Assembly (NCBI GenBank): GCA_026414995.1
Contig: JAOAHY010000002.1
Coordinates: 82,525-146,524 of the forward strand
DNA length: 64,000 bases
Reading direction: 5' to 3'
From: Caldisericia bacterium
GTDB lineage: Bacteria > Caldisericota > Caldisericia > B22-G15
The notes beneath the pieces are model-generated. The model worked only from the letters and a program-made list of their open reading frames with translations, did not search any database and was not told the DNA's origin. Both the position numbers and the translations under genes were made by a program. This document shows, piece by piece, positions 19,280 through 21,177 of this stretch (positions within the stretch are counted from its first letter, which is position 1; the number at the start of each line of letters is the position of its first letter).

Positions 19280-19306
19280 TTAGCACTTTAATATATAGAG
19301 TGCTAA
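19280..19306 (-). promoter_or_regulatory. CIRCE element (HrcA operator) of groES-groEL
   Basis: The two 9-base arms are TTAGCACTT and GAGTGCTAA, separated by nine bases, which is the classical TTAGCACTC-N9-GAGTGCTAA with a single mismatch. It lies between the transcription start and the groES ribosome site, as usual for HrcA-controlled chaperonin operons. Confidence 0.93.
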
Positions 19307-19375: not shown

Positions 19376-19882
19376 TTAACTCTCTTCAATCATTTCACTC
19401 CATTTTTTACTCAACTCATCCCTTCTCGGTTTATAAACTGCTTCAAAAAAGTATCTTTGAGACAAAAGAACACCCTTATCATATGATGAGACAATTTCAA
19501 TTGCTTCTTTCCAAGCTTTATCAAATTTTCCTTTAAATCTTTTTTCAATTTCTTTTTCAAAATCTTCTTCGGTTTGAATCTCCCCACCAATTGTATAGTA
19601 AATTTTTCCATCTATTTCTACAGCATATGCCATCTCATCACCTATTGTCTCAATTTTAAAAGATTCTTTAATTTTCTTTAATTTTTCTTCACTTAATCTT
19701 TTCCTTTTTAGAAATAATTCACTTGGAGTTATTTCTTTAGCACCTTTAAAACCCTTTTTTGCTGCAGCGTAAAAAATTGCTCTATTTAAACCAAAACTTT
19801 TTGCAGTGTTTATTTCTTTTCCTAAAACATATGCTCTTGCTGCTTGAAGTGTTGCCATAACTTGAAATCTTCCAATTGCCAT
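19376..19882 (-). CDS. Unknown 168-residue protein coupled to the primase-ligase gene
   Basis: I do not recognise this protein. It has no signal peptide or membrane helix. The N-terminal third (FQVMATLQAARAYVLGKEIN, then TAKSFGLNRAIFYAAAKKGF) looks helical and contains a run of small residues; the centre is strongly charged (LFLKRKRLSEEKLKKIKESF); a predicted beta pair follows (AYAVEIDGKIYYTIGGEIQ), and the C terminus is again helical. AAGGAGG precedes the ATG. It begins two bases after the stop of the primase-ligase gene, so the two are almost certainly co-expressed. A role with DNA or with the ligase is inference from position. Confidence 0.8.
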   Translation of the reverse strand: MAIGRFQVMATLQAARAYVLGKEINTAKSFGLNRAIFYAAAKKGFKGAKEITPSELFLKRKRLSEEKLKKIKESFKIETIGDEMAYAVEIDGKIYYTIGGEIQTEEDFEKEIEKRFKGKFDKAWKEAIEIVSSYDKGVLLSQRYFFEAVYKPRRDELSKKWSEMIEES

Positions 19883-19884
19883 TT

Positions 19885-21177
19885 TTACCTCCTTAAGCCC
19901 TTAATTTTTTTCCAATATAAAGTTACAATTGGAGAATTATTTCCTATAATATATTTACTATTTATTTCTTTTATAACAATTCCTTCATGTCCCAAAGAAA
20001 TGGCTTCTTTTAAATCTTTTTCTATATCTGACAATTCTTTAAATTTTAAAATTTCAACTCCTTCTCCAAATTTTATTTTATTTAAAATCTCTTTTCTTTT
20101 AATTAAAGGTAAATTTCCTAAAAAATCCCCTTTATAATAGATTATGTCGAAAACAAAAATTATTGGTTTTGCTCTGTTTGTCTCTGAAAAAAGAGAAGGA
20201 ATAAACCTTCTTCCTTTATCAGAATATAACTCACAATCTAAAATTGTTCCATCTGGAACATTTTCAAAAATATCTTTTGAAATTTTTAATTTATAACTCC
20301 AATCTGGATTTTTTTCTAATCTTCTTCCAAAAAATAAAACATTTCCTTTGTCTTTTATTACCTCTAGCCTCCATCCATCAATTTTTGGTTCAACAATCCA
20401 ATCGCCATTTAAATTCTCTCCAAAATATTGAATTGGTTGCATAAGCCAAACTGGTTTTATTTTTTCTTTATTTTCTTTTCCTCTATTTAAAATAAAATTT
20501 AAAAGTTTTTCATCTTCCTCTATTTTAATTGGTTTATCAATCCAATATGAAACTCTATGGGGTCTATCTTTAGTTTCAACTCCTTTTATACTTTTTGTTC
20601 CAATAACTTTAACTATTCTTGGAAGATCATACATATTATCAATTTTCAAATTAAGTTCTTGAATTTCTTTTTTAAATTTATCTCTTATAAAATTTTCAAA
20701 CCAAAGAAGAGAATCTTCAATATCATATCTATTTTCATCATTAATCACATAATAAGGAATTACAAAAAACAACGACACCCCATTTCCAGTCATACCTCTG
20801 AATAGTTTTTTAAAACTATTATTATTAAAAAAATCCTTTATTTTTTCTGATAAAAAAATTGCCCTATTAAGTTCATCATCATCTGATGGTAGATTTTTGG
20901 GTCTTATTGGATCAATATCGATAACAGTCAAATTTAGTCCAACAATATCTTCTTTTCTTGCAGCAAATTTAATGTCTATTTTTCTATCTCTAATACCAGC
21001 ATAAATATTTCTTTTTCCGTTAAATAAAATGCATTCTTTTAAAAAATCACTCTCATTATTGACAAACTTAACAATAGGATATACTCCTTCTTTAAGAATC
21101 CTTAATTCAGTTGGACCTTTATGATTAAGTAGTTTATAAGTAAGTTTTATATCATCTAAATTGATCCCTTCATTCAT
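19885..21177 (-). CDS. Primase-like (AEP) domain fused to an ATP-dependent ligase adenylation domain
   Basis: This 430-residue protein combines two nucleic-acid domains. Residues ~30-230 resemble an archaeo-eukaryotic primase: VIDIDP at 85-90 has the metal-binding DxD (Asp87, Asp89), TGNGVSLFF at 130-138 matches the second motif but has Ser135 where a catalytic His is expected, and LPRIVKVIGTKSIKG at 185-199 resembles the third. Residues ~245-430 form a nucleotidyltransferase with all ligase motifs: EPKIDGWR (Lys265), FFGRR, LDCELY, VFDIIYYKG, EGIVIKE and LYWKKIKG. The protein ends right after motif V, so the OB-fold is missing, as is the phosphoesterase domain of LigD; no Ku gene is near. 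A repair or RNA-templated end-joining role is possible but unproven. The next gene is two bases downstream. Confidence 0.78.
   Translation of the reverse strand: MNEGINLDDIKLTYKLLNHKGPTELRILKEGVYPIVKFVNNESDFLKECILFNGKRNIYAGIRDRKIDIKFAARKEDIVGLNLTVIDIDPIRPKNLPSDDDELNRAIFLSEKIKDFFNNNSFKKLFRGMTGNGVSLFFVIPYYVINDENRYDIEDSLLWFENFIRDKFKKEIQELNLKIDNMYDLPRIVKVIGTKSIKGVETKDRPHRVSYWIDKPIKIEEDEKLLNFILNRGKENKEKIKPVWLMQPIQYFGENLNGDWIVEPKIDGWRLEVIKDKGNVLFFGRRLEKNPDWSYKLKISKDIFENVPDGTILDCELYSDKGRRFIPSLFSETNRAKPIIFVFDIIYYKGDFLGNLPLIKRKEILNKIKFGEGVEILKFKELSDIEKDLKEAISLGHEGIVIKEINSKYIIGNNSPIVTLYWKKIKGLRR

Follow-up and report, generated by a model that had tools for sequence, protein, structure and literature searches.

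How might an ATP-dependent ligase that stops short of its OB domain work, and what does the small gene that directly follows it contribute? The question is raised by two reading frames on the minus strand of the window, as we call the whole 64,000-nucleotide stretch of Caldisericia DNA that was analysed. ORF A (19885-21177, 430 aa) encodes an AEP-type (primase-polymerase) domain followed by a ligase adenylation domain, here called LIG, and ORF B (19376-19882, 168 aa), whose product we call B, starts 2 bases 3' of it. These are the coordinates given in an earlier note made from the letters of this DNA, and the motif positions it listed in ORF A all agree with the sequence. ORF B has its own Shine-Dalgarno sequence, AAGGAGG, inside the end of ORF A (19894-19888, minus strand), and the two frames are therefore likely to be translationally coupled. 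The host, a heat-loving Caldisericota relative with a genome of 1.27 Mb, carries the pair as single chromosomal copies, here adjoining groES-groEL. A CIRCE element (HrcA operator), TTAGCACTC-N9-AAGTGCTAA, lies between ORF B and groES (19280-19306, minus strand), so that groES-groEL are under heat-shock control of their own rather than being simply co-transcribed with A and B. The host genome encodes the replicative NAD ligase LigA, and a genome-wide search found no Ku in it, which extends the earlier note's remark that none was nearby. A second ATP-dependent ligase of the host, one of the usual long kind, has a stop or frame change near a contig end (G000:C15:32293-32650, L002) and is either a pseudogene or an assembly error.

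The C-terminal part of ORF A, residues 241-430 (19888..20457, minus strand), is an ATP-dependent ligase nucleotidyltransferase (adenylation) domain. Its motifs I (KIDGWR, 265-270), III (LDCELY, 313-318), IIIa (VFDII, 342-346), IV (EGIVIK, 398-403) and V (YWKKIK, 421-426) are all intact, and the chain ends at residue 430, four residues past motif V. The Pfam profile DNA_ligase_A_M matches residues 253-414 with an E value of 5e-24; related nucleotidyltransferase profiles are weaker, with the NHEJ-ligase profile among the best matches. Foldseek with the model of ORF A finds DNA ligase catalytic cores (E 5.6e-13). The predicted adenylylated lysine, K265 of KxDG (20383..20385, minus strand), is invariant in 24 of 24 aligned relatives, E316, E398, K424 and K426 are likewise invariant in the alignment of the domain, and F343 is also conserved. 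LIG has all the residues required for AMP loading and transfer. All 24 aligned relatives, however, end at motif V or at most about 10 residues beyond it, and the OB domain and motif VI are absent from every one of them. This indicates that the OB domain is missing from the whole LIG family, so that the bare end after motif V, described earlier for ORF A, is a family trait. The OB domain of known ligases caps ATP and grips DNA (PMC8656161).

The LIG-B pair is not confined to this locus. A single-sequence search of genome contigs with ORF A gave no match; a search of 85,000 species genomes with a profile of B gave 230 relatives, 80 of which were retained for analysis. In bacteria, the LIG beside B is usually a free-standing protein of about 190 aa that begins GPVWLMQPIPYFGE and ends after motif V, and the two genes range over Caldisericota, WOR-3/Caldifarciminota, Thermodesulfobacteriota, Chloroflexota and others. 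Among 45 bacterial loci, one per genome (8 from Caldisericota and 37 others), LIG is the gene immediately upstream of B in 36 loci and runs convergently towards it in 2, which makes 38 adjacent pairs; it lies elsewhere in the genome in 3 (G149, G150, G152), and 4 have no intact LIG, although most of the module genomes are metagenome assemblies and absences are accordingly soft. The coupling of the small gene to an OB-less ligase, proposed in the earlier note for this one locus, thus holds across many genomes. The pattern which that note had set against its own reading, a small gene never adjacent and an OB-fold supplied elsewhere, was looked for and did not appear.

Co-occurrence can also be counted within phyla. 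Of 147 genomes in the WOR-3 phylum, 37 carry B and 33 carry LIG: 32 have both, 5 have B only, 1 has LIG only and 109 have neither. In 10 of the 32, the two genes are unlinked, being on separate contigs or more than 400 bases from each other. Fisher's test gives 6e-26 for this co-occurrence and 2e-10 with adjacent pairs left out, and the distances of LIG are correlated with those of B (Mantel r 0.58, n=33), values that overstate significance because the genomes are related. For Caldisericota the co-occurrence is 8/8 versus 0/46. Though inflated by kinship, the association is far from chance. In the sister species (G002), the pair is kept together with its neighbours, at 78% identity for A and 88% for B; in other Caldisericota the neighbours differ and A and B remain together, at 43-55% and 68-76%, respectively. 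Throughout, the identity of B exceeds that of A (68-88% versus 43-78%). Since the pair is kept in the sister species, across the phylum and beyond it, its presence here is not accidental: OB-less LIG plus B is a constant bacterial unit, conserved and co-inherited. Ku is absent from 44 of the 45 module genomes (a B. subtilis control was positive), and, given the host's LigA, neither classic NHEJ nor replication explains the module. Two of the loci have disrupted copies. At G117:C1, a partial LIG lies beside B (2463102-2463383 and 1420772-1421338 noted) and a whole LIG lies 1 Mb away, reflecting either a relocation or a duplication, with the pair still kept. In one Hydrothermota genome (L092:8001-8512, G168:C126), LIG is intact and B is broken into frames of 70 and 87 aa.

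Searches of Pfam, NCBIfam, PHROG and PADLOC place B (19376..19882, minus strand) in no family at a credible E value, and it has no PDB or viral (BFVD) fold match at E below 0.2. In an alignment of 81 members from bacteria and archaea, a near-invariant hairpin, GRFQVMAxLQAARA...AKSFGLNRAIFYAAAKRGF, is followed by a small beta meander and C-terminal helices; in this B, the hyperconserved N-terminal helical hairpin spans residues 4-46 and the C-terminal region carries YKPxRD. The predicted secondary structure is in keeping with this arrangement, with two helices at the N-terminus, a meander of three to four strands and further helices at the C-terminus (AlphaFold pLDDT 90). The protein is basic, with a median pI of 9.6 in the family and a pI of 10.8 for the N-terminal 64 residues of this member. 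That B is so conserved amid differing partners suggests a ligand universal to these lineages, for which nucleic acid is the simplest candidate. Several identifications of B were tried and rejected. An OB fold was ruled out by the predicted secondary structure and by the lack of a PDB or BFVD fold match; weak matches to uppS, Spore_GerAC, MoaD and the aCascade small subunit were at chance level; and the C-terminal PxRD is not a transplanted ligase motif VI, because archaeal B proteins without LIG keep it. A B homologue (45%) is encoded at L121:5932-6477 on an 87-kb viral contig, on which a large terminase, seemingly intein-containing, lies at L121:942-3602.

The N-terminal part of ORF A, residues 1-235 (20473..21177, minus strand), is a stretch to which no database assigns a name. 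It has the motif I (hhhDhD) and motif III (hD) of the AEP superfamily, with DID at 87-89 (D87/D89) and D180, and a downstream basic motif, K198/R205/R208. D87, D89, D180, R187, K198, R205 and R208 are invariant among 10 AEP family members, of which 7 match PHROG 2478, 'DNA polymerase/primase' (best E 6e-6). In the AlphaFold model (pLDDT 90), D87/D89 lie at a strand end, GNG precedes the next long strand and D180 ends a later strand, a sequence of strands that is the AEP order. In hhalign, the bacterial and archaeal AEPs give a weak pairwise E of 0.0076, with the three motifs in register. With the whole of ORF A, the best 50 Foldseek matches listed are all ligases and none is an AEP, so that the AEP fold rests on motifs, profile matches and strand order; on these grounds we assign the domain as AEP-type, as had been proposed. 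Motif II, GNGVS (residues 131-135; 20773..20787, minus strand), has Ser135 at the usual His position. This substitution, which the earlier note had seen, is family-wide: the His is replaced by Ser, Cys or Ala in every bacterial AEP copy examined, whereas it is present in all archaeal AEP domains aligned. With the metal-binding Asp residues kept but the His lost, the domain may polymerise differently or not at all, and the loss throughout the bacterial family makes a priming role doubtful.

The AEP-LIG fusion is confined to Caldisericota, with seven genomes, and Aminicenantes, with one (L047). In G004, a same-family genome, the frame that precedes LIG and B is lipoprotein-like, and nothing of the AEP part can be traced. 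The same AEP is encoded as a separate protein of about 234-256 aa in seven more bacterial genomes (G103, G104, G105, G149, G157, G167 and G168), all of which carry B and LIG; three of these copies are 43-49% identical. The remaining module genomes lack the AEP, either fused or separate. The AEP is an optional part of the module, and the confinement of its free genes to genomes with B and LIG is Rosetta-stone evidence pointing to a functional link. That the primase-ligase fusion is the essence of the system, as it had first seemed, is not supported, most relatives being LIG and B alone. Three further AEP loci were observed. On a WOR-3 chromosome (L127:5332-6704), the gene that begins 5 bases after a free AEP gene weakly resembles HhH-GPD proteins (base-excision repair). 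In a Caldisericum sp. (L030:732-2074, same contig as L041), the first ~60 AEP residues lie in another frame with stops beside intact LIG and B, owing to AEP decay or an assembly error. At L032:40-2934, a 964-aa protein combines an N-terminal AEP relative (motif II GNGAY, no His) with a P-loop region, and is possibly a mobile-element primase-helicase.

We give an even chance to the proposal that A and B represent, in Caldisericota, a ligase module of two subunits that repairs breaks or gaps independently of Ku, acting on nucleic acid that is most likely DNA, with B in the place of the OB or DNA-binding part. The catalytic subunit would be the bare adenylation domain, loading AMP on Lys265 with neither OB domain nor motif VI; basic B would bind nucleic acid and/or cap the active site, in trans, doing the job of the OB domain (and, for breaks, of Ku) in known ligases; and in some lineages the AEP, fused or co-encoded, would fill or hold the gap or end ahead of sealing. 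The module would thereby serve Ku-independent gap or break repair alongside LigA. B is so regularly kept with an OB-less ligase that it is the obvious candidate for an OB substitute, and the earlier suggestion that the 168-residue protein stands in for the missing parts gives the best fit to its adjacency and co-inheritance. From the same pattern we infer a physical LIG-B complex, a DNA substrate, a nucleic-acid-binding B and a repair process. Counting against the two-subunit model are the archaeal B proteins that occur in the absence of LIG, the five genomes of the WOR-3 phylum that have B without LIG, and the missing motif-II His, which weakens the case for polymerisation by the AEP.

The module resembles several known systems without coinciding with any. 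LigD and archaeo-prokaryotic NHEJ (Ku + Pol + PE + Lig) also join an AEP to an ATP-dependent ligase adenylation domain, and in archaeal NHEJ the parts can be separate genes, as in this module. Unlike LigD, however, the ORF A chain has neither OB domain nor phosphoesterase, the partner is B instead of Ku, which 44 of the 45 module genomes lack, the AEP is often absent, and, where LigD Pol has DxD, SxGxH and D, this AEP keeps DxD and D and has lost the His. Minimal ATP-dependent ligases (Chlorella virus ligase, LigE and T7 ligase) share the covalent nucleotidyltransferase core with motifs I-V. To our knowledge, all three have the OB domain in the same chain, whereas LIG is without it in every relative aligned and is accompanied by a separate conserved protein. 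PrimPol-PV1 and other mobile-element AEPs (PolpTN2, RepB' and PHROG 2478) likewise keep motifs I and III with a relaxed motif II, and in some PrimPol-PV1 families Gln or Tyr replaces the motif-II His (PMC5862659). The AEP studied here differs from that group in having Ser, Cys or Ala at the position, no helicase and a fusion to a ligase; PrimPol-PV1 has a motif IV Arg in the flange region, and the invariant K198/R205/R208 lie past motif III in the sequence.

LIG and B could instead seal broken RNA or RNA/DNA hybrids, with the AEP adding ribonucleotides or merely binding. The RNA_ligase Pfam profile matches ORF A at 1e-5 and locus L054 at 4e-9, and one report (PMC7072297) describes a preference of LigD-type AEPs for ribonucleotides. 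The DNA ligase profile is nevertheless far stronger on ORF A, and the best solved relatives in the structure search are archaeal DNA ligases, so we regard a role in RNA repair as unlikely. We hold it rather improbable that LIG does not ligate at all and only transfers AMP, onto nucleic-acid 5' ends or onto a protein such as B, in a capping- or AMPylation-like reaction. Adenylation and OB domains have been called the minimal requirement for ligase activity (PMC4606414), and this family keeps every adenylation motif while always lacking OB domain and motif VI; but all five ligase motifs are kept, IV and V included, OB functions supplied by a partner would give the same pattern, and the AEP fusion points towards end processing. 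That the unit is part of a mobile element or a phage, as a replication primase/ligase or in defence, is very unlikely: the viral contig with B, the AEP relatives in two phage records and in the 964-aa P-loop-bearing protein, and the patchy distribution are outweighed by single chromosomal copies (here beside groES-groEL), the lack of any match to PADLOC models of known anti-phage defence, and the absence of a plasmid match for the AEP part and of a match in phage records for B.

The two-subunit ligase module must also accommodate archaea, where B occurs in the Asgard group, Bathyarchaeota, Thermoplasmatota, Nitrososphaerota and Thermoproteota. There it either stands alone or forms the C-terminal part of a fusion protein of about 450 aa. 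The B domain of the fusion is homologous (E about 1e-31 to 1e-36), and the AEP at its N-terminus has complete motifs (WDVDG, SGRGIHVHLN and MDIQR). In joining B's family to an AEP these fusions resemble the bacterial module, but their AEP belongs to a different, PriS/LigD-Pol-like lineage with intact SGxGxH, giving weak matches to DNA_primase_S (best 0.0026) and LigD_Prim-Pol (0.011); a free-standing archaeal paralogue matches profiles of these types at 4e-4. The archaeal AEP is present in 20 of the 31 archaeal genomes searched. The LIG family was not found in the archaeal genomes searched, which have ordinary ligases or none detected, indicating that B has a function for which this ligase is not required. 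Such a hyperconserved, basic protein, alone in many LIG-less archaea, could be an independent informational protein (for example, RNA- or ribosome-associated) tied to LIG by a shared operon only, yet this is highly improbable, as co-occurrence persists in the 10 genomes with unlinked genes and archaea fuse B to an AEP. With one AEP fused to LIG in bacteria and another to B in archaea, B is tied to AEPs in two ways. In five archaeal genomes (L182:4200-5962, L183:5029-6707, L184:3741-5823, L185:4960-6637 and L189:4825-6437), a free AEP gene (about 300 aa, SGxGxH intact) has as its neighbour a gene for a KaiC/RecA-like ATPase, and the two are possibly a separate conserved pair. Conserved archaeal neighbours (c11), considered as AEP candidates, were rejected by sequence as cation-efflux-like.

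A wider proposal, which we put forward tentatively, is that these genes belong to an ancient, previously undescribed bacterial-archaeal repair machine, in which B, with a new fold, would be the constant nucleic-acid-binding subunit. In bacteria B would recruit a bare adenylation domain and form with it a ligase that needs both subunits, in archaea it would recruit a primase-polymerase, and the outcome would be Ku-free end joining or gap repair. The open-access literature, to which our search was confined (subscription papers lay outside it), yielded nothing on an OB-less ligase family of this kind, on a Caldisericum primase-ligase or on B. LIG and B travelling together through several bacterial phyla, with B alone or primase-fused in archaea, look like an undescribed two-part machine, probably for DNA repair. 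Ligases are thought to need the adenylation and OB domains together as their catalytic core; a ligase family that never has the OB domain over several bacterial phyla, and is inherited with a single unknown protein, leads one to expect a ligase in two pieces, one of them a new kind of DNA-handling subunit. The system can be tested, since a complete genome of the genus Caldisericum (G018, single contig) has a copy. Since B is also fused to primase-like domains in archaea, testing it would inform repair in many uncultured thermophiles and in lineages that do without Ku-LigD end joining.
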